The notes under the pieces are model-generated. The model ran no database searches. It was not told the origin of the DNA and saw only the letters and a list, made by a program, of their open reading frames with translations. Below are positions 1,965 through 40,942 of a stretch of DNA of 64,000 nt, piece after piece (positions within the stretch are counted from its first letter, which is position 1; every line of letters begins with the position of its first letter). Where the stretch lies: contig NZ_ATVA01000016.1 of the NCBI RefSeq assembly GCF_000420485.1, positions 188,501-252,500 on the forward strand, given 5' to 3'. A program made the translations under genes and the position numbers. The stretch is from Paucidesulfovibrio longus DSM 6739 (lineage in GTDB: Bacteria; Desulfobacterota; Desulfovibrionia; Desulfovibrionales; Desulfovibrionaceae).

Positions 1965-2108
1965 TTGCTCCTCCGATTGTTCGATGTGGGAAAGGGAAAG
2001 AGATTCAAGAGAGAGGATAACATCGCTCGGAAATCGTGGCAATGCGGTGAACGAAAAAAAAGGTTCACTCGCATGGCCCGGAAGGCCGGGAAAAGGCGGG
2101 GCAAGGGA

Positions 2109-2375
2109 TCAGTAGTGGCCGTTGACGATGGCACCGGTCCCGTCGAAATAGCTGGCCAGGATGTTCTTGTGCGGATCCCAGTTGGTTCCGGTCTGCGCGA
2201 AATCCAGCGCGTTGTTGGTGCCGCTGGTGATCTGATAGTCTGCGGATTCGGTGATGGAGTTGGAGCCGTAGGTCTGGTCGTCGAAACGGGCGACCTCGGC
2301 GGTGTCCATGTCGTACCCGCGGAATGCGTTGGCCGTTTCCATGACGGCGTTGTTGTCGATCTGGTCGATGCTCAC
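2109..2375 (-). CDS. Small hypothetical protein (88 aa)
   Basis: No family recognised. The start chosen is a GTG preceded by AAGAGG eight bases upstream; the sequence begins MSIDQIDNNAVMETANAF. The protein is rich in Asp, Thr, Asn and Gly, has no hydrophobic segment or signal peptide, and contains several Asn/Thr/Ser-rich stretches such as YQITSGTNN. The main support for it being real is a near-consensus promoter (TTGCCA, 17 bases, TATATT) placed just upstream, which would give a leader of about a dozen bases ending in the ribosome site. It is divergent from cheD. Coding status is likely but not certain, because the composition is low-complexity and no homologue is known to me. Confidence 0.55.
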   Translation of the reverse strand: MSIDQIDNNAVMETANAFRGYDMDTAEVARFDDQTYGSNSITESADYQITSGTNNALDFAQTGTNWDPHKNILASYFDGTGAIVNGHY

Positions 2376-2392
2376 GGCGAACCTCTTGATTG

Positions 2393-2421
2393 AATATAGT
2401 TCAAGCTGCCGGATATGGCAA
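2393..2421 (-). promoter_or_regulatory. Sigma70-type promoter for the 88-aa gene
   Basis: Read on the minus strand: -35 TTGCCA (2421-2416), 17-base spacer, -10 TATATT (2398-2393). Predicted start of transcription near 2386, about 11 bases before the GTG. Confidence 0.6.
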
Positions 2422-2517
2422 GTCATCCCGCGGACGGCGCGGCCTGATTCGCTTTAGGTTGCCATCCTCGTGAAATGCGGTACCATGAAGACAAATATGT
2501 ATGTACACGAGGGCAGA

Positions 2518-3003
2518 ATGGAAGAGACGCAGCAGATCGTGGTCAGCATCTCGGACATGAAATTCTCCACGCGGAAGGAAGACGTGATCGTTACTTTTTC
2601 GTTGGGATCCTGCCTCGGCATAACCGCATACGACCCGCATCGTAAGGTCGGCGCCTTGATGCATGCTCTCCTGCCCGATGAGTCGGCCTCGCCGCACAAA
2701 GCCAGGAGCAACCCGTACATGTTCGTGAACGTGGGGTTTCGGAGCATGCTCGACAAGCTTGAGCAGTTGGGAGCGTCGCGTCGCAGCCTGATTCTCAAGG
2801 CCGCAGGGGGAGCGGACATGCGGGGGGACAATCTGTTCAGAACCGGCGCGAGAAATCTGGAAGCCCTGCGGCATGTTCTTCACAAGGAGCGGCTCACGCT
2901 GGACGGATACGAAGTCGGGGGAACCATTCCAAGGACGTTGTACCTTTTTATGCAGACGGGGGATGTCGTGGTCAAAACCTTTGGCAAGACGAGAGCCATA
3001 TGA
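2518..3003 (+). CDS. cheD: Chemoreceptor glutamine deamidase CheD
   Basis: CheD deamidates glutamines in methyl-accepting chemotaxis proteins and interacts with CheC/CheY in some bacteria. With the start at base 2518 (CGAGGG just upstream) the protein has 161 residues, normal for the family; ATGs at 2470, 2485 and 2500 are in frame but lack a ribosome site. The catalytic residues are visible as Thr26, Cys32 (in SLGSCLG) and His49 (in LMHALLP), the same spacing as the Thr/Cys/His of the Thermotoga enzyme. A conserved AAGGADM segment follows. The stop overlaps the next start (ATGA at 3000-3003), so the HDOD gene is translationally coupled. No other chemotaxis gene is in the window. Confidence 0.93.
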   Translation: MEETQQIVVSISDMKFSTRKEDVIVTFSLGSCLGITAYDPHRKVGALMHALLPDESASPHKARSNPYMFVNVGFRSMLDKLEQLGASRRSLILKAAGGADMRGDNLFRTGARNLEALRHVLHKERLTLDGYEVGGTIPRTLYLFMQTGDVVVKTFGKTRAI

Positions 3004-3848
3004 GCAGACGCGAAGAGATCATCGCGCGCATCAAGGACGTGAAGCGCATGCCCTCCGCCGTGCAGAAGGCCGTTGTGCTTCTGGGCGATCCGGATGTGGA
3101 TGTCGGGGAACTCTCCCGGATCATCGAGCACGATCCGGGATTGACGAGCAACGTGCTGCGACTTGCCAACTCTGCCTATTTCGGCGGATCACGCAGCATT
3201 GCCAGCGTCCGGGATGCCATTGTCCGCCTCGGCGCAGGCAACCTCAAGAAAATGCTTGCAACGGCCGGACTCGAGCCTGTGGCCAACCAGGAAATCAAGG
3301 GGTACGGCCTTCCGCCCGGAATGCTGCTCAAGCATTCCATCACGGTGGCCGTGAGCGCCGAGGAGCTGGCGAAGCAGCTTGGCCGGCGGGCTCCGGAACA
3401 CACATTTACGGCCGGTCTGCTTTCCGACATAGGGAAGGTCGTTCTCGGAACCTTCCTGGCCGTGGACGCCGAACCGATCCTGGCACTGGCCCATGACCAG
3501 GGGCTGACTTTCGAGCGGGCCGAGGAGGAGATCCTCGGCATCAACCACGCGGAAGTGGGGGCGTTGCTGCTGGACTACTGGGAGCTTCCGGAGAATATAG
3601 TGCAAGTGGTCCGCTGGAAGTACGATCCGCTCGGTTTCGACGGCAGCGATCTGGCATTGGACCTGGTTCATGTGGCGGACGCGCTCGCCAAGATGTCCGG
3701 GATAGGCGTGGGCGTGGATGGCTTGAATTACCGCCCCTCGGATCAGGTGGTCAAGCGTCTGGAACTGACAAGCGAGATCATCGACAGGACGATGGCAGAG
3801 GTGCTTGACAAGGTGGAGCAGGTTTTCGAGGGCTTGGGAGGAGCATGA
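3000..3848 (+). CDS. HDOD-domain protein
   Basis: Protein of 282 residues that is almost entirely an HDOD domain, a degenerate relative of HD phosphohydrolases found in bacterial signalling proteins. Typical features are the N-terminal RIKDVKRMPSAVQK segment, IEHDPGLTSNVLRLANSAYFG (about 38-60) and the HTFTAGLLSDIGKV helix that stands in for the HD motif, followed by a NHAEVGALLLDYW segment. Catalytic metal ligands are mostly missing, as usual for HDOD. It overlaps cheD by four bases, suggesting coupled synthesis and a shared role in taxis or motility control; this role is inference. A strong hairpin follows the stop. Confidence 0.9.
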   Translation: MSRREEIIARIKDVKRMPSAVQKAVVLLGDPDVDVGELSRIIEHDPGLTSNVLRLANSAYFGGSRSIASVRDAIVRLGAGNLKKMLATAGLEPVANQEIKGYGLPPGMLLKHSITVAVSAEELAKQLGRRAPEHTFTAGLLSDIGKVVLGTFLAVDAEPILALAHDQGLTFERAEEEILGINHAEVGALLLDYWELPENIVQVVRWKYDPLGFDGSDLALDLVHVADALAKMSGIGVGVDGLNYRPSDQVVKRLELTSEIIDRTMAEVLDKVEQVFEGLGGA

Positions 3849-3862
3849 GTCTTCGAAAAATG

Positions 3863-3895
3863 AACAGGGCGGACATCTTTTGAATCCGCCCTGTT
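3863..3895. terminator. Bidirectional hairpin between HDOD and rubredoxin genes
   Basis: Perfect 11-base arms AACAGGGCGGA / TCCGCCCTGTT. On the minus strand the stem is followed by CATTTTTCG, so it mainly terminates the rubredoxin transcript; it also lies 14 bases past the HDOD stop. Confidence 0.75.
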
Positions 3896-3904
3896 ATAAA
3901 ATAT

Positions 3905-4060
3905 CTAGACTTTTTCGAAGTACTCTTTTTCCGCTCCGCACTTGGGACAGACCCAGTCTTCAGGCACGTCTTCCCAGGCGGTGCCGGGGGCCACGCCGTT
4001 TTCAGGATCCCCGATCTCAGGATCATAGACATATCCGCAAGGGCATTCCCATTTTTCCAT
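3905..4060 (-). CDS. rub: Rubredoxin with a CxC first ligand pair
   Basis: A 51-residue rubredoxin, a small cytoplasmic one-iron electron carrier that in Desulfovibrio relatives serves oxygen and superoxide detoxification. The second knuckle is canonical, [10 protein letters not shown]. The first is [10 protein letters not shown], that is Cys-x-Cys-Gly where rubredoxins normally have Cys-x-x-Cys-Gly; the codons TGC CCT TGC GGA are unambiguous. The rest ([20 protein letters not shown]) matches the family closely. Ribosome site is weak-looking but the promoter upstream is near consensus, and a terminator follows, so it is a single-gene unit. Confidence 0.9.
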
Positions 4061-4102
4061 CAGCGGCCTCCAGGGTGTTCCAAGGTTTACCAGTCTGACG
4101 AA

Positions 4103-4131
4103 AAAATATTCCAGGCTATGGAGAGTGTCAA
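4103..4131 (-). promoter_or_regulatory. Strong sigma70-type promoter for rubredoxin
   Basis: On the minus strand: TTGACA (4131-4126), 17 bases, TATTTT (4108-4103). Expected start of transcription near 4096, giving a leader of about 35 bases. Confidence 0.7.
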
Positions 4132-4309
4132 GAATTGTGTTCCACGGCTCTCGGCGGCTCCCGGATTCTGTTGAGGTCCGGCATGTCTCGGCGAGAAGGG
4201 AGGCCTCCCGGCGAAAAAGCGTGGACGCACAGGCATGAGAACAGCTATCGTGATCCCGACCACATGTGCGCCGTCTCCAGGCCCGGCGATGGCGACGAAG
4301 GAGGATGCC

Positions 4310-4588
4310 ATGAGTCATGAAAGCGAAAAAAGGTCCACTGATCGGGCACCTGTGCAAAAACAGGTGGAATTCTTCGTCGATGCGGACATCATTCAGGCGG
4401 AATCCGTCGATCTATCCCAAAGCGGCGTCCGCATGAATACGGACAAGCCCATCGCCATCCGCATGCGCATCTACCATCCGAACGGGGGATTCGACGAGCA
4501 TGTGGCGCAATTGGTCTGGGCGGCGCGAAAAGGGGAGCAGATGAGCTACGGGTTCGAGTTTCATCCCGATCCGGAAGCCGAGGAATAG
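4310..4588 (+). CDS. PilZ-domain protein
   Basis: A 92-residue single-domain PilZ protein, the classic receptor for cyclic di-GMP. The start at 4310 is preceded by AAGGAGG. The ligand-binding signature is present: RSTDR (RxxxR) near residue 8 and DLSQSGVRM (D/N-x-S-x-x-G) near residue 36, followed by the expected beta-strands ([26 protein letters not shown]). It would bind cyclic di-GMP in the cytoplasm and act on an unknown partner. A GGDEF protein lies about 9 kb away. It stands alone, with rubredoxin divergent on the left and an unknown membrane protein on the right. Confidence 0.88.
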
Positions 4589-4594
4589 AACGTT

Positions 4595-4616
4595 CCCCTG
4601 ACCGACGGGGTTTTTT
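4595..4616 (+). terminator. Short hairpin with T-tract after the PilZ gene
   Basis: CCCC (4595-4598), eight-base loop, GGGG (4607-4610), then TTTTTT. The stem is only four base pairs, so termination may be partial. Confidence 0.45.
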
Positions 4617-4860
4617 CCTCTCTTCGCAGCCTGGGCACGGTGGTCGGCATCCGTTGATGTCTTCTTGCTGGGCTTTGCGGATCCCTTCCTTCTGCACGGG
4701 ATACAATCTCTTGAAATGGATGCTGTTTTTTCGCCGATGACGGCATGATTTTGCTTGTCGGATGCATCCCGGCATGGCATGCGGAAAACGTAACCTAATT
4801 GTAACAAATCTTGCCGCTATGGCGGTTCCAAGGATCCAGATACGGAATGAGGTCGTTTTC

Positions 4861-7800
4861 ATGGTTGAATTGAGCACTGAATCCGCGCCTGCCGCGACGG
4901 AAAAGCATATTTCGCCCTTGTTTTTCGATAAGCGGGATTATGCGCTGCTTGCCATCGTCAATGATGTCCTGGAGCGCGACGAGCCTCATTGGGATCTCAA
5001 GAAACTGCTCGCTCCCTATCTTCATCCCCACGGCATCAAGGAAATGGCCGCGACGCGCGGATTGCGCGTGGCCTACGCCGTCATCCACCTGCTCGGCTCC
5101 CTGGAACGCGGCAAGGCGCACGAGCGCGTGGAAGCCCTGCGCGCAGCGCGCGACGAGGTGCTGACCACGGCCAAGGGGTCGCTGCGCACCAATGCGGCTC
5201 GCGTGCTTTTGCAGGTCATGAAGGAGCTTGTGCGCTCCAAGGGCGATTATCTTCGCCAGCTCGAGCTGGCCCACGACTTTCGCATCGTGACCTCCGGCAA
5301 GCCGCGCGTCGTTCTTCAGCAGCTGCACAAGTATCATCTCGTGGAGATGCCGGAGGAGTGGAACCAGATCAGCTTCGACGATCATGTCCACGACGCCAAC
5401 ACCAAGGGGCGCAAGTCTCCGACCCACCTGATCATGGATGCCTGGATCAAGGGGATTCGCAGGCTCACCGTGGTCTATTACAACTACGTCGATCCGCGCG
5501 TGGCCGAGGAATTGCTGCGGGCCGCAGAGGTCATGGAGATTTCCGTGCATGTCGGGGTGGACGTCTCCGCGCGCTATCGCGACCGCTTCGCCCGATTCGT
5601 CTGGGAACCGCGCGGCTTCGCCGATTCCCAGGAATACCTCGCCTTCCTTCGTCGCCCGGACGTCCAGGAGTTCATGTCCGCAGGCCGTGCGGCCTCCAAC
5701 TATCAGCACGCCTACGTTTTCGAGGTGCTCCGGGCCTACAATCAGCGCCATCGCCTCGACCTGGGGCGCAGCCTGGACATCGACGCGCCGCAGGTGGACG
5801 AGGTGGAATTCTGCGGATTCGTGGGCATGGGGCAGCCCTCGTTGCTGCACCTCGGCACGTTCATCCTGGAGCAGCTTGTCCCCCTGCTTCGGGAACGGCA
5901 TGCCCGGCTGCGGACGGATTTTTGCGATCACGGGGCAGAAGGGGAGGAGGCGGAACGTGCGCGTCTGCTTCTGGAACGCATCTCCCGCCTCTGTGCAGAG
6001 GAGATCGTCGAACAGTATCTCATCCCCGAACGCAACCCTGATCTTGTCGATCCCGGGGATCCGGAAGCGCCTGACCTTCCGGAATTGATGGCAATGCCTC
6101 CGTTGAAGCTGATGCAGCGCTTCGCGGGACTCCATTCCCTGAATCGCGTGACCCTGATTCCCGACGGCCTGGGAACGGAGCAGGCTCTTGAGATCCTTTT
6201 CGATTGCCGCGGCTACGTCACCCACATGGAAATATTCAATCTCAAGGGCGACGTGGACAGCCGATCCGCGCAAAGCGTCGAACTGAACCGCCTGCGGCTG
6301 GCCCTGAACGATTCCAGCCCCATCGCGCTCAAGCGCATTCTGCGCCAGCGGATCAGCAGCCTTGAGCAGGGCGGCATTGAGGGAAACGACCTGCTGGACA
6401 AGCTCAACAGGATATTGGGCAATATCAACGGGTTCCGTGCGCCGTTCCGAAATTCTCCCCTGAAGGCGAGCATGGGCAGCCGTTCCACCGGAAGGTCCGT
6501 GCTCACGCGCGGGATGGGACTTGTCGTCGCGCAGACGTTGCCGTCCCGGTCGCAGCGGCATCTTCTGGCCAAGAGCGACAAGCGTGAGTTCCTTCCCGTC
6601 ACCGTGGAAGTCTGGCGCCGGGTGACCTGCATCCCCATGGAAGCCGCCGGAGCATTGGGCGAGCGCTGGTTCGCGCTGTTGCGCTCGACGCAGTGGCTCG
6701 CGGGGCTCACCTGCCGCAAGGTCTCGGACTGGAAACCGGTGCGGTGGACGGTGTCCATGGAGTCTCGGGGCAATGTGGCCACCCTGGGAGGCCCGCGACG
6801 CGAGCCCGACAGCGGCTTGCAGCCCGGCTGCGAAGCCGAGCGCCGTCATCGCCAGCCGAGATTCAAGTATCTGAACAGCAGATGGCTGAACCTGCTCAAG
6901 GTGGCGGTGGGCTTCGTCCCTGCATTCCTCACGTTCGCCCTGACCAAGGACTGGTGGGTGTTGGCCTATCTTGGGGCCTTCATCTGGTTCGGAATCACCG
7001 GGGTTCGCAACGTGATTCAGTCCGTGCTCGGCGGCGGGGGCATACGGCGTTCCCCTCTGCTGCGCTGGAACGACTACGTCAGTTGGAGCCGTATCTGCGA
7101 CTCCCTGCTTTTCACCGGCTTTTCCGTTCCCCTGCTGGACTGGCTGACCAAGAGCCTTGTCCTCGACCGCATGTTCGGCATCAACACCAGCACGGATCCG
7201 CTCCTGCTCTATACGATCATGGCCCTGACGAACGGCGTCTACATCACCAGCCACAATCTCTTCCGGGGACTGCCGCACAGCGCGGCCTTCGGGAATTTCT
7301 TCCGCAGCGTGCTTTCCATTCCCATCGCCGTGCTCTTCAACTCTCTGGTCGGGCTTGGGCTGGTCTTTTTGGGCACGCCCGATGTCAACGGCGTCCTGCA
7401 ACGCTGGGCCGCGGTGATTTCCAAGCTGGCCTCGGATTGCGTGGCCGGATTCATCGAGGGCCTGGCCGACCGCCGCAACAACATTGATATGCGGCGCTGG
7501 GACTACAAGGCCAAGCTGGCGCAGGTATTCGAGACGTTTTCCGCCCTGGAGCTGCTCTTTCCGCGCAAGGACGTGCTCCTGATGTTGCAGCGTTCCGAGG
7601 AGTTCTTCAGCGAAATCCGTACGGCGCGCAGTTCGCTCGACAAGGTCATGATCGTCAACGCGCTGGATCTTCTCTATTTGTATATGTTCCAGCCGCGTGC
7701 GGCGAGCGCCTTGCGGGGCATGGTCGCGGCCATGTCGCGCGAGGAGAGGGCGGTTTTCTTCGCGTCGCAGCAAATCCTGGAGAACGAGCGGGAGGTCAGC

Positions 7801-7977
7801 AGGCTTTTCGTGGACGGCATTGTGGGCCGGAGCTTTTCCAAGGGCCTGTCTTTCTATTTGCTGCGTTACCGCGGTTACCTTCGCAATCTGGAGCGGCTGA
7901 TTCAGAGCGTCGACAAGGGCGCCGTGCCGGAAGGCGTGTCCATGACGTCCCGAAGGGGCAACGAATTCATGGAATGA
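4861..7977 (+). CDS. Large uncharacterised membrane protein (1038 aa)
   Basis: I do not recognise a named family. The chosen ATG (4861) has GAGG eight bases upstream; in-frame ATGs begin at 4762. Residues about 1-650 are soluble and mostly helical, with an acidic, histidine-containing section (SFDDHVHDANTKG, about 176-188) followed by alternating hydrophobic strands (RLTVVYYNYVD, MEISVHVGVDVSA) that look like part of a barrel, and a later DGLGTEQALEILFDCRGYVTHM stretch. From about residue 677 there are four to six hydrophobic segments, two back to back (677-722), one near 782 and one near 818. The last 200 residues are helical and charged. Likely an inner-membrane protein with a big cytoplasmic head. 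It is monocistronic, bounded by a terminator. Confidence 0.85.
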   Translation: MVELSTESAPAATEKHISPLFFDKRDYALLAIVNDVLERDEPHWDLKKLLAPYLHPHGIKEMAATRGLRVAYAVIHLLGSLERGKAHERVEALRAARDEVLTTAKGSLRTNAARVLLQVMKELVRSKGDYLRQLELAHDFRIVTSGKPRVVLQQLHKYHLVEMPEEWNQISFDDHVHDANTKGRKSPTHLIMDAWIKGIRRLTVVYYNYVDPRVAEELLRAAEVMEISVHVGVDVSARYRDRFARFVWEPRGFADSQEYLAFLRRPDVQEFMSAGRAASNYQHAYVFEVLRAYNQRHRLDLGRSLDIDAPQVDEVEFCGFVGMGQPSLLHLGTFILEQLVPLLRERHARLRTDFCDHGAEGEEAERARLLLERISRLCAEEIVEQYLIPERNPDLVDPGDPEAPDLPELMAMPPLKLMQRFAGLHSLNRVTLIPDGLGTEQALEILFDCRGYVTHMEIFNLKGDVDSRSAQSVELNRLRLALNDSSPIALKRILRQRISSLEQGGIEGNDLLDKLNRILGNINGFRAPFRNSPLKASMGSRSTGRSVLTRGMGLVVAQTLPSRSQRHLLAKSDKREFLPVTVEVWRRVTCIPMEAAGALGERWFALLRSTQWLAGLTCRKVSDWKPVRWTVSMESRGNVATLGGPRREPDSGLQPGCEAERRHRQPRFKYLNSRWLNLLKVAVGFVPAFLTFALTKDWWVLAYLGAFIWFGITGVRNVIQSVLGGGGIRRSPLLRWNDYVSWSRICDSLLFTGFSVPLLDWLTKSLVLDRMFGINTSTDPLLLYTIMALTNGVYITSHNLFRGLPHSAAFGNFFRSVLSIPIAVLFNSLVGLGLVFLGTPDVNGVLQRWAAVISKLASDCVAGFIEGLADRRNNIDMRRWDYKAKLAQVFETFSALELLFPRKDVLLMLQRSEEFFSEIRTARSSLDKVMIVNALDLLYLYMFQPRAASALRGMVAAMSREERAVFFASQQILENEREVSRLFVDGIVGRSFSKGLSFYLLRYRGYLRNLERLIQSVDKGAVPEGVSMTSRRGNEFME

Positions 7978-7982
7978 CGCAA

Positions 7983-8013
7983 AAAGGGCGGAGCCTTGGA
8001 GGCTCCGCCCTTT
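7983..8013. terminator. Bidirectional terminator between convergent genes
   Basis: Perfect 13-base arms AAAGGGCGGAGCC / GGCTCCGCCCTTT around TTGGA. On the minus strand the stem runs into TTTTTGCG; it ends both the 1038-residue gene and the secreted-protein gene. Confidence 0.85.
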
Positions 8014-8038
8014 CGGCGTTCTGTGGGACGGATTGGCT

Positions 8039-8725
8039 TTACGCCTTGACGCGGCGGCGCAGGCCGATCAGGCCGAGAAGACCGGATCCGAGGAGCCAAA
8101 CGGCGCCGGGGATGGGGGTCTTGGAGAGCGCGTCGGTCATGATCACGTCGTTGGCACAGCTCACGGTGTAGCCGAGAGTCAGGCTGTCGAAGTCGATGTT
8201 CAGGCCCGCGATGGTGATGGTGCCGGTGGTGCCGCCGTTGAGAGCGGGCATTCCGGACCAGGTGCCGGTGGCGATGGCGTCTCCGGAGACGATGCCCCAG
8301 GCCGGATGATTGTCGCGGTAGTCGCCGCCGGAATAGAATCCGAGTTCATAGGCGTTCGGGTCGGTGTAGGACTTCTGGAAGTCGTAGACGCTGGCGGTCA
8401 GGTCGCTGTTCAGCTTGATGACGTAGTTCCAGGAGCTGTCATCGTCCGTGTTCACGAACAGGTCGCCGGAGCGCAGATTGGGGTAGAGATTCTGGTACTT
8501 GTCGACGGTGAAGAAGAAGCTGACGCTTTGCAGGGTGTTTCCGCTGTAGGTGGCTTCGCCGCCGGTGATGTCGGGAATGCCGATCACGTCGAGCTTGTTT
8601 TCCTTGTAGGTTCCCCAGCCGTCCCAGTTGTTCACGTCGTCCCCGAAGGTCCAGACGTTGGCCTGCGCGGGCAGGGCCGACAGAACGAGGAGAATCATCG
8701 CCATCAAGGTCATCAATTTACGCAT
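8039..8725 (-). CDS. Secreted protein with VPLPA/PEP-CTERM-like sorting tail
   Basis: A 228-residue exported protein. The start used (MRKLMTLMAM) is eight bases after AAGGGGG; an ATG two codons upstream is too close to that site. It has a signal peptide ending PAQA, a beta-rich body with a Trp/Asp/Gly-rich start (WTFGDDVNNWDGWGTY), and a C-terminus reading TPIPGAVWLLGSG, GLLGLIG and then RRRVKA. That is the three-part signal (short Pro motif, transmembrane helix, Arg cluster) processed by exosortase/archaeosortase-type enzymes. The body shows no catalytic motif I can name; proteins of this type are usually surface or biofilm-matrix components. No exosortase gene is in the window. Confidence 0.85.
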   Translation of the reverse strand: MRKLMTLMAMILLVLSALPAQANVWTFGDDVNNWDGWGTYKENKLDVIGIPDITGGEATYSGNTLQSVSFFFTVDKYQNLYPNLRSGDLFVNTDDDSSWNYVIKLNSDLTASVYDFQKSYTDPNAYELGFYSGGDYRDNHPAWGIVSGDAIATGTWSGMPALNGGTTGTITIAGLNIDFDSLTLGYTVSCANDVIMTDALSKTPIPGAVWLLGSGLLGLIGLRRRVKA

Positions 8726-8954
8726 GTCCATTTCCCCCTTGGTTGCTTCACGCCTTTTTTTCTGATCGTGAGCCCAAACTACCCTCCCAGGTGTTTTGCC
8801 AACAATCGGGCGGAAGTATGATTTCGCCTACCGAATCTCTAATACTTCGGTATGGCAGGAACGAATTTCCCGTCAGGAGTGTTAAGCAACCAGGGTGCCA
8901 AGCAAAGAACCGGAATCTATTGCCGACCTGTACAGACAATTATGTCCGTATCGA

Positions 8955-8982
8955 TTGCGCTTGTCCGGCAAGCGGGTATATA
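8955..8982 (+). promoter_or_regulatory. Possible promoter for the sensor kinase
   Basis: TTGCGC (8955-8960), 16 bases, TATATA (8977-8982), 23 bases before the ATG. Match is moderate. Confidence 0.35.
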
Positions 8983-9005
8983 GGGATTTTCGAGAGAGGA
9001 ACTGC

Positions 9006-11393
9006 ATGAAGCGTGACGGATTCAAGGGCCTGATGTTGACCTGTTTTCTGCTCGCCGCCCTGGTCGGGGCGGCGGTTCCGGCGGATGCGGTGCTGGGAGC
9101 ATATGCTTCCGGCCGCCAGCTGGTTGTCGTCGGGAGCAGGGAGTATGCGCCTTTCGAGTTTGCCGGGCCCGACGGCGACCCCAGGGGGATATTCGTCGAG
9201 TATTGGCAGGCGTGGTCGCGCGAAACCGGCATTCCCATCGACTATAGGTTGACGGAATGGCCGGAAGCGCTGCGGATGCTGGAGAGTGGAGAGGCCGACA
9301 TCATTTCCGGCATGTTCCAGACCGAGGAACGCGAGCGTCGTTTCGACTTCGGGCAATCCTTCCTGAACATTGAAGCGGGCATTTTTTTTCATGAAAGCGT
9401 GCTGGGAGTCCGAACGCTCGACGACCTCAAGGGATTCAGGGTCGGAGTCGCGCAGGACGATTTCGCGCAGGAGTATCTCTTTCGGCACGCGCCGCAGCTT
9501 CAGTTGAAGATCTATCCTGGCTACGAGGCTCTTGTGCGGGCCGCTCTGAACGGCGACATCCGCGTATTCATCGGCGATGAGCCGGTGATTATGTTTCTTC
9601 TGGCCCGTCATGCCGATGGGAAGTCGTTTCGTTTGGCTCCAACACCTCTGTATTCCGAAGCAGTCAGGCCCGCGGTGCGCAAGGGTGACTCCGAAACCCT
9701 TGCGCTGCTCAACAGCAATGCCCAGGCCGTGCCGGAAGATCGCATGAGCCGCATCGTGGACGATTGGACAGGACAGGGATTCATGGAGCGCCTGCCTTGG
9801 ACCTGGTTTGCCGCCGTCGGCGGTTTGCTCTTGGCCTTGGCGCTCATGCTCGTCTTCAGCAACCGCAAGCTCCTTCGGCGCGTAGGGTGGACGTCCGATT
9901 CGCTGGCCCGCAGCGAGGAGCGCTACCAGCTGGCGACGCACGGCTCCAACGACGGCATATGGGACTGGGACCGGGATACGGACGAGGTCTACTATTCTCC
10001 TCGCTGGAAGAGCATCATCGGCTACGAGGACCATGAAATTCCAAACCGGATCGAGGAATGGAAGTCGCGCATCCATCCTGATGATTTCGACCGTGTCATG
10101 GAGGCGAACCAATCCCTCTTCGACAACAGCGCGGATTTTTTCGAGGTGGAATACCGCCTTCGCCACAAGGACGGCTCCTGGCGCTGGATTTATGGACGCG
10201 GAACCTGCCTGCGGGACGAGAAGGGGCATATCCGCCGCATGGCCGGAGCCCACTCGGACCTCACGAAGCGCCGGGAGATGGAGGACCACTTGCGCCGCAA
10301 CGAGGAAACCCTGCGGGAGATCCTCGACAACATGATGGACGGATTCTACCGCGCCGACATGGAAGGCCGGTTGATCATGGTGAATCCGAGGATGTATGAG
10401 ATGTTGGGCTATGCGCGCGGCGACGATCTGCTCGGCAAGGACGTGGCCTCGGAATTCTACTACTCCCCGGAACAACGCAAGCCGTTTCTGGAAAAGATCA
10501 TGGCCGATGGCGTCGTATCCGGATACACGGCCGCGTTGCGGCATCGCGACGGAAGCCCTGTGGAAGTGGAAACCAATTCTCATCTGATCGTGGATCAGCG
10601 GACGGGAAAGCCCGTGGGCATCGAAGGCGTGGTTCGGGACGTGGGCGAGCGGCGAAGGCACGAGCTGGAGCTTCAGCGTCTTGTCGCCAAGCTGGAAGCC
10701 AAGAACGACGAGCTGGAACGCTTTACCTACACCGTCTCGCACGACCTCAAGAGTCCGATCATCACCATCAAGGGATTTCTCGGCCTCTTGGAACGGGACA
10801 TCAGCAAAGGCGACAGGGATCGGGTTTTTGGGGACCTCGCGCGCATCAACAGCGCAACGGATAAAATGGAAATGCTGTTGCGCGAGTTGCTGGAACTCTC
10901 CCGCGTCGGGCGAATGGACAATCCCCTGGTGCAGGTTTCGCTCGAGGAGGTCGCCCGCGAGGCGTTGGAGCTGTCCCAGGGGCTTTTCGAGGAGTCGGGC
11001 GGGCGCGTGCAGGGTCTGGAAAGCCTCCCGTCGATTCTGTGCGACCGTCCGCGCATGGTGCAGGTCTTCTTGAATCTTTTCAGCAATGCCGTGAAATTCA
11101 GATCGCCGGAGAGACCATTGCTGGTACGAATCGATGTTTCCGCTCACCGCGGCAATGTCGTGGTCCGGCTTGAGGACAACGGCAACGGAATCAAGGCGGA
11201 GTATCTCGAAACCGTCTTCGGGCTGTTCCAGCAACTGGACCAGAAACAGGGTGGATCCGGGCTGGGGCTTGCCTTGGTCCGTCGCATCATTGAAAATCAC
11301 GGCGGGCGCATCTGGGCGGAATCCGAAGGCGAAGGCAAGGGGACGGCCTTCGTCTTCAGCCTGCCTCGGTCCGGCTTTCGACCAGGGCAATAA
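9006..11393 (+). CDS. Hybrid sensor: periplasmic solute-binding domain, two PAS domains, histidine kinase
   Basis: Protein of 795 residues; the ATG at 9006 follows GAGAGGA. Order: signal peptide (1-28), family-3 solute-binding domain (about 38-250; VVVGSREYAPFEF, MLESGEADIISGMF), transmembrane helix (about 263-285), PAS with PAC (300-420; YYSPRWKSIIGYEDHE), second PAS (425-545), then HisKA with phospho-acceptor His579 in TVSHDLKSPI, and the ATPase domain with N-box (LFSNAVKF), EDNGNGI and GSGLGLALV. It should sense an amino-acid-like ligand in the periplasm and phosphorylate a separate regulator; no receiver domain or response-regulator gene is adjacent, so it is an orphan. Terminator follows. 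Confidence 0.93.
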   Translation: MKRDGFKGLMLTCFLLAALVGAAVPADAVLGAYASGRQLVVVGSREYAPFEFAGPDGDPRGIFVEYWQAWSRETGIPIDYRLTEWPEALRMLESGEADIISGMFQTEERERRFDFGQSFLNIEAGIFFHESVLGVRTLDDLKGFRVGVAQDDFAQEYLFRHAPQLQLKIYPGYEALVRAALNGDIRVFIGDEPVIMFLLARHADGKSFRLAPTPLYSEAVRPAVRKGDSETLALLNSNAQAVPEDRMSRIVDDWTGQGFMERLPWTWFAAVGGLLLALALMLVFSNRKLLRRVGWTSDSLARSEERYQLATHGSNDGIWDWDRDTDEVYYSPRWKSIIGYEDHEIPNRIEEWKSRIHPDDFDRVMEANQSLFDNSADFFEVEYRLRHKDGSWRWIYGRGTCLRDEKGHIRRMAGAHSDLTKRREMEDHLRRNEETLREILDNMMDGFYRADMEGRLIMVNPRMYEMLGYARGDDLLGKDVASEFYYSPEQRKPFLEKIMADGVVSGYTAALRHRDGSPVEVETNSHLIVDQRTGKPVGIEGVVRDVGERRRHELELQRLVAKLEAKNDELERFTYTVSHDLKSPIITIKGFLGLLERDISKGDRDRVFGDLARINSATDKMEMLLRELLELSRVGRMDNPLVQVSLEEVAREALELSQGLFEESGGRVQGLESLPSILCDRPRMVQVFLNLFSNAVKFRSPERPLLVRIDVSAHRGNVVVRLEDNGNGIKAEYLETVFGLFQQLDQKQGGSGLGLALVRRIIENHGGRIWAESEGEGKGTAFVFSLPRSGFRPGQ

Positions 11394-11398
11394 AAAAA

Positions 11399-11416
11399 GG
11401 GGAGCAAAAGCTCCCC
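11399..11416. terminator. Hairpin between sensor kinase and Cys-motif gene
   Basis: GGGGAGC / GCTCCCC with AAAA loop. On the minus strand it is followed by seven T residues, so it is a good terminator for the gene on the right. Confidence 0.75.
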
Positions 11417-11438
11417 GTTGTGTCGTATAGGGCGATGC

Positions 11439-11819
11439 CTAGCCGCCGAACCAGCCGGGGCTGATGACCTGAAGGGCCTTGGTATAGTTGACGCGCAGCT
11501 TTTCCAGCTTGCTGCCGATTTCCGATTCCTTGTCGGAGAGGCTGGTGGGGCAGATTTCAAGCATCTGTCCACGCACCGCTTCGATTTCCTTGACGGTCGA
11601 CTTGATCAGCGTCAGCGTATCGGCCAGCTTTTCCTGGTCGCTCGCATTCAACGATCCCACGTCCACGAGAACGTCGTAGAGCCTCGCCTTCCAGGCGTTC
11701 AGTTCCATTTCAAGTCCCTTGCAGTAGTGCTGCACGGCTTCTTCCTTGGAGACACCCGCGCTGCAACCGTCGATTCCACCACAACTGGGGCAAGGACCAG
11801 GATAATCCATGTTAGCCAT
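11439..11819 (-). CDS. Small conserved-looking protein with N-terminal CPSCGG motif
   Basis: A 126-residue protein starting MANMDYPGPC, with GGGAGGAAG upstream. The N-terminus has CPSCGGIDGC and a later HYCKGLE, which could bind a metal. The remainder (about 35-110) is a charged alpha-helical stretch that looks like a helical hairpin or coiled coil (KLADTLTLIKSTVKEIEAVRG), and the protein ends ISPGWFGG. I do not recognise a family. It has its own promoter and terminator, so it is a single-gene unit; it is divergent from the ribB riboswitch transcript. Confidence 0.7.
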   Translation of the reverse strand: MANMDYPGPCPSCGGIDGCSAGVSKEEAVQHYCKGLEMELNAWKARLYDVLVDVGSLNASDQEKLADTLTLIKSTVKEIEAVRGQMLEICPTSLSDKESEIGSKLEKLRVNYTKALQVISPGWFGG

Positions 11820-11865
11820 ATCTTCCTCCCGATGTTTATGTAAATGAGAAGGGTTACTATTTGAG

Positions 11866-11894
11866 ATCATAGATTGCATATGCTTCTGTGTAAA
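11866..11894 (-). promoter_or_regulatory. Promoter for the CPSCGG protein
   Basis: Minus strand TTTACA (11894-11889), 17 bases, TATGAT (11871-11866). Leader of roughly 40 bases to the ATG. Confidence 0.55.
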
Positions 11895-12013
11895 GGGGGA
11901 GGCACTGTTTTTTGCGGGCAAGAACGTCACGAGGTCTTTTCTCGGTGTATAATTCTCTGAAATAATTTTATGAATTTTATAGAAGCGTTGAAAATTATAA
12001 CATGGACTCAGGA

Positions 12014-12040
12014 TTGACAAACGACGCCAAAAGGTATTGT
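12014..12040 (+). promoter_or_regulatory. Probable promoter for the FMN-riboswitch/ribB transcript
   Basis: TTGACA (12014-12019), 15-base spacer, TATTGT (12035-12040). The spacer is short but the riboswitch begins about ten bases downstream, as expected. Confidence 0.5.
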
Positions 12041-12050
12041 CTTTCCGGAC

Positions 12051-12195
12051 TTATTCTCAGGGCGGGGTGAAATTCCCCACCGGCGGTAATTCCGGCCATG
12101 CGCAGGAAAGCCCGCGAGCGCTCCCCCCGTGGGGGAGGTCAGCAGATCCGGTGAGATTCCGGAGCCGACGGTCACAGTCCGGATGGAAGAGAGTA
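12051..12195 (+). ncRNA. FMN riboswitch (RFN element)
   Basis: The hallmark conserved blocks are all present in order: TTCTCAGGGCGGGGTGAAAT, TCCCCACCGGCGGTAAT, an AGCCCGCGAGCG block, GGTCAGCAGATCCGGTGAGA, TTCCGGAGCCGACGGTCACA and GTCCGGATGGAAGAGAG. This aptamer binds flavin mononucleotide and shuts off riboflavin genes. A GC-rich hairpin (GCGCGGG / CCCGCG, about 12216-12234) and a conserved-looking GCCCTGATTCTGGTAAC block lie between it and the ribB ribosome site. No clear T-tract follows the hairpin, so control may be at translation initiation. Confidence 0.97.
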
Positions 12196-12308
12196 AGGCA
12201 GTCACCGACCTGCGCGGGCGATTCTCCCGCGTCGGCTGTTTCGCGTTCTGCGAACGGCTGTCCTTTCTTTGCCCTGATTCTGGTAACGTTTTATTGAGGA
12301 GTTTTACC

Positions 12309-12953
12309 ATGAATCAGTCTTTGCTTTCCCGTTTTGGCGATCAGGTCGAGCGCGTGCGAGCTGCGCTGGATGCCCTGCAACAGGGCAGGGGGGTTCTTGT
12401 CACCGACGACGAGGACCGCGAGAACGAGGGAGACTTGATCTTTCCGGCGGAGACGCTTGCCGCCGGGCAGATGGCCATGCTCATTCGCGAATGCAGCGGC
12501 ATCGTCTGTCTTTGCCTCACGGACGAGAAAATCCGATCCCTGAATCTGCCTCCCATGGTCGAAAACAATTCCAGCCGCTACCAGACGGCCTTCACCGTCT
12601 CCATTGAGGCGGCGGAAGGCGTGACCACCGGCGTGTCCGCGGCGGACCGCGTCCGTACCGTGCAGGCCGCCGTGGCGGACAACGCCCGCCCGGAAGACCT
12701 GCACCGTCCCGGACATGTCTTCCCGCTCCGCGCCAAGCCTCAGGGCGTGCTGGAGCGCCGGGGACATACCGAAGCCACGGTGGATTTGATGCGTCTTGCC
12801 GGGCTGCGTCCCAGCGGAGTCCTCTGCGAGCTGACCAACCCGGACGGCTCCATGGCACGCCTGCCGGAGATCGTTGCTTTTGGCGAGCGCGAGAATTTTC
12901 CCGTGCTGACGGTGGCCGATCTTGTCCACTACCGCCAGGAGTTCCGCCAATAG
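12309..12953 (+). CDS. ribB: 3,4-dihydroxy-2-butanone 4-phosphate synthase RibB
   Basis: RibB converts ribulose 5-phosphate to 3,4-dihydroxy-2-butanone 4-phosphate plus formate, one branch of riboflavin synthesis. The ATG at 12309 follows GAGGAG. At 214 residues it is the stand-alone form, close to the E. coli enzyme in size, with no GTP cyclohydrolase II (RibA) domain fused behind it. Metal and substrate motifs are present: [10 protein letters not shown] (about 33-42), and [12 protein letters not shown] near residue 150. It is under direct control of the FMN riboswitch and is followed by a terminator, so it is a single-gene riboswitch unit; the other rib genes are not in the window. Confidence 0.97.
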
Positions 12954-13002
12954 GCGAAATCGGCTGACGCCGAAACGCAATCGCGCAAATGCGCCATGAA
13001 AA

Positions 13003-13036
13003 GGCCCGCTTCGTTTTCACGGAGCGGGCCATTTTG
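13003..13036. terminator. Terminator after ribB, shared with the diguanylate cyclase
   Basis: Twelve-base arms GGCCCGCTTCGT / ACGGAGCGGGCC (one wobble pair), loop TTTC, then ATTTTG on the plus strand; TTTTC on the minus strand. Confidence 0.8.
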
Positions 13037-13053
13037 CGCAAGGGCGGAGAGAC

Positions 13054-13803
13054 TCAGAGCAGCTTGCCGAGGTCGCGGTAGAGCTGGCAGTTGTTGCGAC
13101 CGATTTCCTTGGCCCGGTACATGGCGATGTCGGCGTTCTTGAGCAGGGATACAGGTCGATCCGCCTCGTGGGGATAAAAGCTCAGACCGACGGAACCGCC
13201 GATGTGCGCGCGGCCGAACTTGAGATCGAAGGGACGCTGCAATTCGCGCAAGATGTTGGCCGCCAGGGCCAGGGCCACCTGCTCGTCGTCCAGGGCGGGA
13301 AGAATGACGGTGAATTCGTCGCCTCCGAGCCGGGCGATCTGACCATGTTTTCCAATGCAGGCGCGCAGCCGGTCCGCAACCTGCACCAATAGCTCGTCGC
13401 CGGCGTCATGCCCCATGGTGTCGTTGACCTGCTTGAATTTATCAAGGTCGATGAACATCAGGGCCAGAGAGTGGCAGGTTTGGCTGCATTCATCGCAGGC
13501 CTTTTCCAGCAGTTCGTGGAAAATGGCGCGGTTCGGCAGCCCCGTCAGCGGGTCGAGGTTCGCCTGTTCCAGTCGGGAATGGGCGTCGAGGAGATCCTCG
13601 ATGATCAATTCCAGGCGGAATTCGCGGGCTTCCTTCTGGACGACCAAGCTGCCTATTTGCTCGGCCAACTCCGCCAGCCGGGGGGAGAAATCTTCGTCGG
13701 CGGTCAAGCCCATGAGGTCGTCGACGCTTGAATCGTCGCCTTTGGCCACGGCTGCCGTCACTTTGCAGAGCCGAGTCAGGTCGGCTAATAATTTTTCACT
13801 CAT
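13054..13803 (-). CDS. GGDEF-domain diguanylate cyclase
   Basis: A 249-residue protein; the start MSEKLLADL lies six bases after AGGGG. Residues 1-80 are helical and coiled-coil-like without a recognised sensor fold. The GGDEF domain begins at the usual DPLTGLPNR (84-92) and carries an intact active-site loop RLGGDEF (160-164 for GGDEF), so it should make cyclic di-GMP from GTP. The place of the inhibitory RxxD site just before it reads GKHG, so product inhibition through that site is probably absent. No transmembrane segment. It may feed the PilZ protein at 4310, but only co-occurrence supports that. Confidence 0.93.
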   Translation of the reverse strand: MSEKLLADLTRLCKVTAAVAKGDDSSVDDLMGLTADEDFSPRLAELAEQIGSLVVQKEAREFRLELIIEDLLDAHSRLEQANLDPLTGLPNRAIFHELLEKACDECSQTCHSLALMFIDLDKFKQVNDTMGHDAGDELLVQVADRLRACIGKHGQIARLGGDEFTVILPALDDEQVALALAANILRELQRPFDLKFGRAHIGGSVGLSFYPHEADRPVSLLKNADIAMYRAKEIGRNNCQLYRDLGKLL

Positions 13804-38426: not shown

Positions 38427-38513
38427 GCCGAGGTGGTGGAACTGGTAGACACGCTATCTTGAGGGGGTAGTGACCGAAAGGTCGTGGGGGTTCGAGTCCC
38501 CCCCTCGGCACCA
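38427..38513 (+). tRNA. tRNA-Leu (GAG)
   Basis: 87 bases with encoded CCA, acceptor GCCGAGG / CCTCGGC, long variable arm as expected for a class II tRNA, anticodon stem CTATC / GGTAG enclosing TTGAGGG, so anticodon GAG. Closely follows secG. Its last 17 bases (38497-38513) plus the terminator are copied at 40263. Confidence 0.95.
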
Positions 38514-38562
38514 TAGAAGACCAAAGGGTCGCAGCTGAAAGGCTGCGACCCTTTTTTCTTTG
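38497..38562. repeat. attL-like direct repeat, copy 1 (tRNA-Leu 3' end and terminator)
   Basis: 66 bases from the tRNA T-arm through the terminator T-run. Identical to 40263-40328 except one position (A at 38524, C at 40290). Typical of integration at a tRNA 3' end. Confidence 0.88.
38523..38560 (+). terminator. Terminator of tRNA-Leu
   Basis: 13-base perfect arms AAAGGGTCGCAGC / GCTGCGACCCTTT, loop TGAAAG, then further Ts (TTTCTT). Duplicated at 40289-40326. Confidence 0.93.
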
Positions 38563-38593
38563 GCGTTTGGCTCCGCCCGCTGATTGCATTTCA

Positions 38594-38870
38594 AGCGTTG
38601 TGTCGCTCGCGGGTGCCGTGGCCCAGTTCGAGCGGGCCATCATCAAGGAGCGTCAACGGGAGGGCATCACCAAGGCTCAGGCCAAGGGCAAGCACTGTGG
38701 CAGGACGTCCATGCTCAATCCGGAACAGGTTAAGGAGATCAAGGCGAGGGTGGATGCTGGGGAGGAGAAGAAGGCCCTGGCCCTGGAGTACGGGGTACGG
38801 GGTCAGTCGGCAGACGCTCTATCGGGGCCACCGGGTAGGGCGGTCTGATTTGTTTGTCTTTCTCTTTTGA
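38594..38870 (+). pseudogene. Serine recombinase/resolvase C-terminal fragment, frameshifted
   Basis: Begins within the catalytic-domain end with LAGAVAQFERAIIKERQREG, continues GKHCGRTSMLNPEQVKEI, the start of the helix-turn-helix DNA-binding domain, and then breaks: after ALEYGV the frame reads RGQSADALSG while the neighbouring frame continues SRQTLYRGHRVG. A seven-base tandem duplication TACGGGG TACGGGG (38789-38802) accounts exactly for the shift. The N-terminal catalytic serine region is missing. A dead remnant of a Tn3-resolvase/invertase-type recombinase. Confidence 0.85.
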
Positions 38871-38875
38871 GGGGA

Positions 38876-39460
38876 TCAGTCTTTTTGTTTGCGAGGTTTT
38901 TTGGGGCGAACCTTACAAGAGCGTCGTTGGATGTCTTTAATTCGCTGAAGAAGCTCACCTACGTAGCCCAGTGTTTCGTTCATGCCTGGGCTGTAGCTGC
39001 TCGGATGTGCGCATTCATTGCGTTTGGCTAGCAAGCCTTGAAGTATTTTTTCTTCACTTTTGCCAATCAGGCTTAACCGGTGAGCAGCGCCTATGAGCTG
39101 ATGCTCAACTACATTTTCTCGTAAATCTTCTACAGCCGCCCAGTCAGTCCAGTTGGGGAAGGCATTGTGAAGATGCCTGAAGTTGTCTTCTGTAAGCTTG
39201 TCCTCAAGAAAGTCCATGAAAGCTGCCCAAGCCATGACGTGCGCCGCTTTATAGATGCGATGCTCAACACATCTCACAGCCTGCCGGAACAATTGGGCTT
39301 GTCGGAGTGAAAGTCCAACGATAGCTTGCCGTGTTGTTGTTAGAGTGATCACCCTATCGGGGGATGTTTCGTGCGTGGAAAGGATGTTTCTTGCTTCAAT
39401 CTCGAAGCTCTTCATCTTTTCAGCAAACTGTGTTGTCAGTTGTATGCCGTTTTTAATCAT
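38876..39460 (-). CDS. HEPN-like protein with RNECAH (R-x4-H) motif
   Basis: A 194-residue, mainly helical protein. The start MIKNGIQL is chosen because its ATG overlaps the stop of the upstream gene (ATGATTAA, 39460-39453); an in-frame ATG at 39502 is possible. In LLAKRNECAHPSSYSPG the residues Arg147 and His152 form the R-x4-6-H pair characteristic of HEPN ribonucleases, followed by the helix TLGYVGELLQRIKDI; an earlier helix AHVMAWAAFMDFLEDKL is also typical. HEPN proteins include RNases of abortive-infection and toxin systems and the RiboL-PSP group. Catalytic activity is inference. G+C is low and the gene lies within a tRNA island. Confidence 0.72.
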   Translation of the reverse strand: MIKNGIQLTTQFAEKMKSFEIEARNILSTHETSPDRVITLTTTRQAIVGLSLRQAQLFRQAVRCVEHRIYKAAHVMAWAAFMDFLEDKLTEDNFRHLHNAFPNWTDWAAVEDLRENVVEHQLIGAAHRLSLIGKSEEKILQGLLAKRNECAHPSSYSPGMNETLGYVGELLQRIKDIQRRSCKVRPKKPRKQKD

Positions 39461-40091
39461 TTGGTAATAGATGCTTATGCATCGATGAGAATAACTGTTC
39501 AAGAAGCTCAGCGTTCGTTGACTCCGGAAGAGTTAGCTGGATGTTTAAGTTCACTGTAAGCCCTTGGGCTTGGTAAGTTCCTACAGGTTTGGTAATAGAA
39601 GGATCTGCAGTCGCAAGTGTTTGCCCTGGCGAGGCAAGCTCTTCAGGATTGAAGTCTGAGATCTGATTAGGCCGGTGCTCACTATTAAAATCCGCGAGTT
39701 TCGCTAACGCTTGAAAGTTGGCAACCATTCGATTGACCGTGACTTGGCCCTTGTCAGTCTCTTGGAGAAAGAAGTTACCTAGCTCCTTACGCTCTGCAAG
39801 GTGTGCATTGGGGTATAACGCAAATAAATCGCTATACTTTTCTCGAAGAATAGTAGCCAGGTGCCCGCCAAGATCTCGTCTTGCCTCTGCCCACCGTTCA
39901 GTAGGGACGTTTTTGGCGCTTATAAGATCAAGGAATTTTAAAATGGTAAGCAGGCCGTTGTCGTTGGACCCATTAAAGCCAAGTGATTTAAGCCACTTGA
40001 TGTCGACAATCTTGGGAATTTGAACCTCTCTAAGCTTTTCTCCAAGCAACTTATTTAATTTGTTGGAAACTTGCGTACTGGGGTAGTTCAT
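39453..40091 (-). CDS. DUF5343 protein
   Basis: A 212-residue protein from the ATG with GTGGAGACC just upstream (40091). Residues about 29-138 match DUF5343: VDIKWLKSLGFNGSNDNGL, ILKFLDLIS, REKYSDLFALYPNA and a later RMVANFQALAKLADF. The C-terminus has a beta-strand-like NLNIQLTLPESTN and LLEQLFSSMHKHLL, typical of the family's end. Function is unknown to me. It overlaps the HEPN gene by eight bases, so the two are translated as a pair. The longer reading to 40337 runs into the repeat and was rejected. Confidence 0.75.
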   Translation of the reverse strand: MNYPSTQVSNKLNKLLGEKLREVQIPKIVDIKWLKSLGFNGSNDNGLLTILKFLDLISAKNVPTERWAEARRDLGGHLATILREKYSDLFALYPNAHLAERKELGNFFLQETDKGQVTVNRMVANFQALAKLADFNSEHRPNQISDFNPEELASPGQTLATADPSITKPVGTYQAQGLTVNLNIQLTLPESTNAELLEQLFSSMHKHLLPND

Positions 40092-40262
40092 CGTGGTCTC
40101 CACTATTGTTTGTGCGAGCATATTAAATCGTCTGCATTCGTTCAACGTTTTTATGTGACATGATCGCCCTTGCCAACTGCTACCCCAAACTGGTACACCA
40201 AGGCTCACAACCGAAGGCAAAAAGCCAAATGATTTCAAAGCATGAGGCGGGAGATGCGGGAA

Positions 40263-40328
40263 TCCCCCCCTCGGCACCATAGAAGACCACAGGGTCGCAG
40301 CTGAAAGGCTGCGACCCTTTTTTCTTTG
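40263..40328. repeat. attR-like direct repeat, copy 2
   Basis: Second copy of the 66-base sequence (tRNA-Leu last 17 bases and terminator); one mismatch. No tRNA body precedes it. Beyond it the sequence resumes with the ferritin-like gene. Confidence 0.88.
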
Positions 40329-40378
40329 TGTTTGCAACGCGGATTCGGATGAGATAGCCTTGATAGCAAGGAGTCAAT

Positions 40379-40942
40379 ATGCATGAGGAAAAGTTGCTGG
40401 AGATCATAGAGTTGGCACGCGAAACCGATCTTGTCGCGGCCAAGACGTATTTCAATCTTGCCGAGCAGTTCAGAAAAACTGATCTTGGCGATTTCTGGCG
40501 CGGCATGGCCGAGGAGGAGCAGAAGCATGCAAGGCTTTGGCTGCATCTGCACCAACTCGCCAGGGACGGGATGATGCCGCCTTTGTTCGACTCGCCGGAT
40601 GACGTTCTGAAGGACATGCGGCGCAATTTTGAGAGCGCCAAGAATCTCCGCCAGGTCTGCTGTCTCGGCGTGAACATGTCCCAGGCATTTTTTCACGCCT
40701 ATACCGTGGAGTATCACATGCTCCACTTCGCATTTGAATTTCTCTTCTGCTTTGCCGACTCTCTGGAAGATCTGCCTGACGGTCTTTCCGTGCATAAGGA
40801 TTACGAGCGGCATATCAAGGATTTCATTGAGGCGACGGAAAGGTACGGGGTCATGAGTCCCGAGCTGCGGCTGCTGGGAGACGCCTTGCTTCGTTTGCTG
40901 GAGACGAATCGAAGACTTTGGCGGAGCGCGAATTCCTGTTGA
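40379..40942 (+). CDS. Ferritin-like/rubrerythrin-fold diiron protein
   Basis: A 187-residue, all-helical protein. AGCAAGGAGTCAAT precedes the ATG. Iron-ligand-like motifs are in the right order: an early Glu in AAKTYFNLAEQFR, the first E..H pair in MAEEEQKHARLW (about 41-52) and a second in TVEYHMLHFAFEF (about 110-122). No rubredoxin-type Cys pair is present, so it is not a full rubrerythrin. Ferritin-like proteins detoxify peroxide or oxidise iron; the reaction here is inference. Hairpin terminator follows. Confidence 0.8.
   Translation: MHEEKLLEIIELARETDLVAAKTYFNLAEQFRKTDLGDFWRGMAEEEQKHARLWLHLHQLARDGMMPPLFDSPDDVLKDMRRNFESAKNLRQVCCLGVNMSQAFFHAYTVEYHMLHFAFEFLFCFADSLEDLPDGLSVHKDYERHIKDFIEATERYGVMSPELRLLGDALLRLLETNRRLWRSANSC

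Follow-up and report, generated by a model that had tools for sequence, protein, structure and literature searches.

Just downstream of a tRNA-Leu(GAG) gene, in the 64-kb stretch of DNA analyzed here (the window), two 66-nt copies of the tRNA end and its terminator enclose a short piece of foreign DNA. They are best read as the attL and attR sites of a tRNA-Leu(GAG) island measuring 1,766 bp. The full explanation we favor, and consider probable, is that a mobile element integrated site-specifically at this gene, later lost its integrase and survives as a remnant akin to a CIME (cis-mobilizable element) that still keeps a pair of genes, A and B, forming a defense or toxin-like module. As an element it looks like the decayed remnant of an island and is of a known kind; its gene pair is little known and the more interesting part.

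A duplicated tRNA end

The intact tRNA-Leu(GAG), the presumed target gene, was placed by ARAGORN at 38427–38513 on the forward strand. Its last 17 nt lie inside a 66-nt core (38497–38562, forward strand) that runs on through a hairpin and U-run 3′ of the tRNA and returns in the same orientation at 40263–40328, 65 of the 66 bases being identical and one different. The left copy, with its 17 tRNA nucleotides and terminator hairpin, is the proposed att site (attL/attR) on the integrase-proximal side; the right copy, a tRNA 3′ fragment with its terminator, would be the other. Three more bases, with one further difference, extend the core to a 69-nt block (38494–38562 and 40260–40328; 97% identity, spacing 1,766) which, read against the tRNA sequence, starts in the T-loop. 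A preliminary description of this DNA had reported the duplication and its 65 identities, and our direct-repeat search and ARAGORN confirm both. It had also defined the unit as the last 17 tRNA bases plus the terminator, which agrees with the ARAGORN end at 38513 and the predicted hairpin and U-run. Its claim that the repeat gives the exact borders of the element holds in part: the unit is 1,766 bp long, but its borders are exact except for where in the shared block the crossover took place.

Folded as RNA, the left hairpin has a minimum free energy of −30.0 kcal/mol and the right −27.1, and 0 of 200 shuffles reached that stability for either hairpin. Beyond the two copies, the closest match to the 66-mer on both strands of the 64-kb window has 27 mismatches, and the 29-nt hairpin pattern, with up to three mismatches allowed, turns up at only these two sites in the 3.70-Mb genome. 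The repeat is therefore neither dispersed nor a product of chance. Terminator function of the two copies is a structure prediction only; a terminator inside the repeat would mean that the tRNA keeps one whether the element is integrated or excised.

The signature of integration into a tRNA gene, in the part of PMC4383910 that deals with it, is an element with the intact gene at one border and, at the other, a displaced 3′ piece of it in the same direction. The same-direction tRNA 3′ ends around foreign DNA accordingly support the earlier view of an attachment-site duplication bounding an integrated element. Could the block instead have arisen by segmental duplication, or by homologous recombination with insertion between the copies? 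The insert has no integrase and no empty site was seen among the genomes searched, as such an origin would allow. We nevertheless think it very unlikely, because the block begins in the tRNA T-loop with both copies in one orientation, the classical island signature of that same part of PMC4383910, and because comparable repeat-bounded tRNA islands occur in this genome, at tRNA-Ser, and in other genomes with the same cargo. That contigs were misjoined through the 66-nt repeat is scarcely credible: the genome is a draft in 19 contigs, but the unit sits within a contig of 331,641 bp and its copies differ at one base. A 1.8-kb unit is within reach of ordinary read pairs.

We part company with the preliminary description over its judgment that the repeat is unusually long for an attachment core. 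The repeats of a tRNA-Ser(gga) island in this genome measure 88 nt, with 100% identity, two Mycobacterium islands have repeats of 48 nt, and the published ranges are 12–98 bp across 88 Sinorhizobium meliloti elements integrated at tRNA genes, in the section of PMC11476347 covering them, and “generally” 8–60 bp for mobilizable elements, in the corresponding section of PMC5704250. At 66 nt the repeat is on the upper side of the known range yet inside it, and is in itself ordinary. Less usual is that the identity takes in the terminator; the tRNA-Ser island has differing sequences 3′ of its two tRNA copies.

What lies between the copies

The copies are separated by 1,700 bp with a GC content of 49%, against 60% for the window. 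This DNA is a mosaic, since the remnant at the left stands at 64% and A plus B at 46%. The remnant (38601–38850, forward strand) comes from a serine recombinase of the Pin/resolvase type. It matches positions 114–145 of the 145 in PF00239, HTH_7 weakly and a PHROG DNA invertase at 4.5e-15; it lacks the catalytic N-terminal part, and its frame changes within the helix–turn–helix part. Its closest relative in the genome (55–56%) is the 183-aa serine recombinase of the tRNA-Ser island. DNA of the insert matches 3 phage and 36 plasmid records, and among the phage matches listed and the 10 plasmid matches listed the similarity is confined to the recombinase remnant and to annotated recombinase genes. 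The proteins A and B have no match among plasmids, phages and viral contigs, and the att core pattern has none (0) in viral contigs. No tyrosine integrase lies within 38563–40262, all 12 PF00589 matches of the genome being elsewhere, and the genome has no second copy of the 1,766-bp unit. Another serine recombinase fragment, 47% identical to that of the window, was seen in a different genome (G035; L029 1215–1418) just upstream of a tRNA-Leu and on the opposite strand.

The same site in relatives

To the right of the element, and outside it, is a gene for a ferritin-like protein of 187 aa (40379–40942, forward strand; Rubrerythrin, PF02915, E 0.011, below cut-off). It was found in 3 of 59 genomes, this one included, and in neither G001 nor G002, the only same-genus genomes among those searched, which makes the right flank variable in its own right. 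The ferritin-like gene may be an older gain at the site. The preliminary description had predicted an empty site in which one copy directly precedes the ferritin-like gene. No element-free allele sharing the right flank turned up when 99 genomes were searched for the tRNA and the DNA 3′ of it and 59 for the ferritin-like protein, or in 26 stretches around tRNA-Leu; an intact parent element at tRNA-Leu(GAG) was likewise not seen in the relatives searched. Those 26 stretches, some of them short, come from 25 relatives and contain no displaced fragment of at least 14 nt, the second copies being tandem tRNAs only. Within the DNA examined, then, elements with a repeat of at least 14 nt are not common at this site.

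Both same-genus genomes have other DNA 3′ of this tRNA than the window has. About 9 kb of other genes (for TonB/ExbB/ExbD-like, CobW, GntR and PAS proteins), with no second copy of the tRNA end among them, separate tRNA-Leu(gag) from the next shared gene in G001. In G002, tRNA-Leu(gag) and, just 3′ of it, a gene for a DUF6538 integrase lie at L032 6648–8698. A second contig of G002 (L033 9600–9708) ends inside another copy of tRNA-Leu(gag), one with a terminator like that of the window, and the two contigs are perhaps the two ends of one island.

Comparable islands and the class of the element

The tRNA-Ser(gga) island of the same genome is 12 kb long (L119, G000:C13:88000-107500, at 1601–13736). 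A DUF6538 tyrosine integrase gene sits beside its tRNA, and the island also carries SngA, SngB and SngC (Shango by PADLOC) and the serine recombinase. It shares with the window element long direct repeats bounded by a tRNA, a serine recombinase of the same family and a cargo of defense genes. It differs in its size, in having an integrase, in repeats that cover the tRNA itself and in what else it carries. Because its recombinase is oriented oppositely to the window remnant, relative to the respective tRNA, we regard it as a relative in kind and not the parent. Closer in cargo are two islands at tRNA-Arg(ccg) in Mycobacterium, related to each other (L101 6143–15451, 9.3 kb; L104 8653–18393, 9.7 kb), in which the same A-B pair lies near the far att site and points toward the tRNA, as in the window element. 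They too differ from it in size, in their 48-nt repeats and in the tyrosine integrase gene beside the tRNA. A further tRNA-borne element of the present genome may be marked by a 402-aa integrase gene 3′ of tRNA-Leu(cag) (L120 5462–6945, G000:C15); no direct repeat of at least 20 nt was found in the 19 kb examined there.

These comparisons suggest how the window element came about. A mobile element, probably one that used a tyrosine recombinase, would have integrated site-specifically into tRNA-Leu(GAG) and so created the two 66-nt att copies. Its integrase would later have been lost, most simply by a single deletion from the tRNA to the middle of the serine recombinase gene, since the integrase adjoins the tRNA in the tRNA-Ser island and in G002, just where the window element breaks off in its recombinase. 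The outcome would be a CIME-like remnant of 1,766 bp that cannot move by itself and retains an intact two-gene operon, A-B. That it is a decayed remnant is argued by the lack of an integrase, the broken recombinase and the presence of the same A-B pair in complete Mycobacterium islands that do have one.

In the section of PMC5704250 that defines them, CIMEs have lost their integration and transfer genes and kept both att sites. The window element, judged from its sequence, has both att sites and has lost its integration genes, with no integrase and a broken serine recombinase. It is very small for a CIME, and the likeness is one of gene content and att sites; no ICE or IME parent was seen at the site. 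An intact tDNA with a same-direction cognate fragment around foreign DNA is also what the Islander program looks for. As the relevant part of PMC4383910 has it, however, an integrase gene must lie between the copies and the island must span 2–200 kb, candidates under 2 kb being rejected, so Islander would miss an element of 1,766 bp that has no integrase. Remnants below the size limit of tRNA-island finders, and without the integrase these demand, can evidently still hold a conserved gene pair that is intact and likely to serve in defense. A literature search on integrase-less defense islands at tRNA genes gave no match.

Must the element have decayed at all? It could be a non-autonomous, minimal defense cassette with two att sites, moved in trans by the integrases of other elements. 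Though it has no integrase, its att copies differ at 1 of 66 positions, as if they had recombined recently or repeatedly, and both A and B are intact. A DUF6538-type integrase is found at the same tRNA in G002, and its nearest relative in the window's own genome (29%) belongs to the tRNA-Ser island. We consider such a cassette unlikely. The genome has only the one copy of the unit, and the broken recombinase points to decay. Moreover, 10 of 12 A-B loci examined, several of them on short contigs, have no flanking direct repeats of at least 18 nt, and the two that do, both of them the Mycobacterium islands, also have an integrase. Decay of a once-complete island remains the reading we prefer.

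Genes A and B

Gene B (38876–39460, reverse strand) encodes 194 aa and is predicted to be a HEPN protein from a 15-row alignment, an AlphaFold2 model and VIA. Its RX4H motif is R147-N-E-C-A-H152; all 15 B sequences have RNxCAHP unchanged, in line with the Rx4-6H motif given as a HEPN feature in the pertinent part of PMC3710099. The model (pLDDT 87.5) has as its top VIA row 2hsb, at Z 11.5 over 113 residues and an rmsd of 2.6, followed by a sacsin HEPN domain (3o10; 10.7), HepT (9.6), Csm6 (8.0), AbiV (7.1) and RnlA (6.7), although a Z under about 13 can reflect a common helical-bundle arrangement. Foldseek against the PDB gave a best E of 0.18 at probability 1.00 and nothing under 0.001. The four-helix HEPN fold is thus predicted for B, subject to the same helical-bundle caveat, and since the Z values need care its assignment rests on the motif and on the family make-up of the fold matches. 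B is probably a HEPN ribonuclease. With HepT, AbiV, RnlA and Csm6, the HEPN toxins and Abi effectors, it shares predicted fold and RX4H motif but no sequence family match. No NCBIfam model matched it, and in scans run on a longer reading frame of 208 aa no PADLOC model did, nor any Pfam model above cut-off; the weak rows below cut-off were CUE (0.012) and phrog_27609 (0.0004), a family of unknown function.

Gene A (39453–40091, reverse strand) shares its last 8 nt with the start of B. Its 212 aa depend on a start codon assigned by choice, and its profile scans were run on the longer frame 39453–40337 (294 aa). They identify A as DUF5343 (PF17278, 3.6e-24) and as PDC-M34A of PADLOC (PDLC04589, 1.8e-32). 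The structure model of A (pLDDT 79) has no match in the PDB at E 0.001. A sigma-70 scan found 2 possible promoters against 1.8 expected, none of them upstream of A. As in PDC-M34, an M34A protein is here adjoined by a partner of the HEPN type, but the neighbor is not M34B: B has no PADLOC match at E 0.1, and we take it for a different HEPN partner. Nor is A an MNT nucleotidyltransferase by the libraries searched. Searches of the literature returned nothing on DUF5343 and, on PDC-M34, nothing beyond the general phrase “phage defence candidate.”

A conserved pair in bacteria and archaea

Within the phylum B is rare, found in 2 of 395 genomes, and A is found in 9 of 395 and, within the order, in 7 of 199, the present genome being counted each time. 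A search of named-genome contigs with B and its closest relative, the query being their two-row alignment, reached further and recovered 14 loci, from Mycobacterium, Methanoperedens, Acidobacteria, Thermodesulfobacteriota, Sideroxydans, Chloroflexi, Patescibacteria, Dehalococcoidia, Methanomassiliicoccales, Actinomycetota and unclassified bins. In all 14 the gene immediately upstream of B is A, once truncated by the contig end. As the loci were found through B, the pairing shows A beside B and not the reverse; the same search with the over-long A frame (39453–40337) found nothing. Two of the loci are one and the same (L105 and L072, 100% identical), and L109, where A is cut, was left out of the A alignment. 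tRNAs occur near A-B in L108, L112 and L114, which we do not count as islands because our search found no repeated tRNA end there.

What might the pair do? Judged by its predicted fold, its RX4H motif and the constancy of the pairing, B would be the ribonuclease and A its partner, which may either restrain or trigger it. Most likely, going by sequence and structure prediction, the two act as a toxin/antitoxin-like module or as an abortive-infection defense module. One locus bears on defense. In the Thermodesulfobacteriota isolate Yes70-18 (L072/L105), A-B is enclosed by PglX and BrxH, and BrxC and PglZ lie to its two sides. Core BREX genes surround A-B in this locus only, and the 1.7-kb insert of the window has none. 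HEPN RNases beside or within BREX loci have been described as backup suicide effectors, in the part of PMC12839542 that treats them. A plain toxin–antitoxin pair that stabilizes its island by addiction, with no anti-phage role, is possible, if somewhat less than an even bet. Two overlapping genes, one of them for a toxin-like HEPN protein with HepT toxins among its fold neighbors, would suit it, as would the position of most A-B loci outside recognized defense systems in the stretches read. It sits less well with the pair embedded in BREX, with the DNA methylase gene that follows another pair (L106) and with the listing of A as a defense candidate by PADLOC.

DUF5343 together with a HEPN family that has no model spans bacteria and archaea, and the pair is found in one BREX locus and in two complete tRNA islands. 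This broad spread and these contexts, with no literature found on DUF5343 or PDC-M34, make A-B a clear and testable candidate. A bolder idea, which we consider improbable, is that A-B is a travelling minimal defense cassette on the ends of tRNA islands, which stays behind or travels on with nothing but its att sites around it, moved in trans by the integrases of other islands, with a B family common to bacteria and archaea and unmodelled in the libraries searched.

In the phylum and order samples, the partners of A homologs are mostly other HEPN partners. Six were scanned, L074, L077 and L079 being left out, and five match other HEPN-type families: three Swt1-like (L073, L076 and L080, which also match PDC-M34B), one Ymh and one DUF4145, all listed as HEPN families in the part of PMC3710099 concerned with them. 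The sixth is B's own relative.
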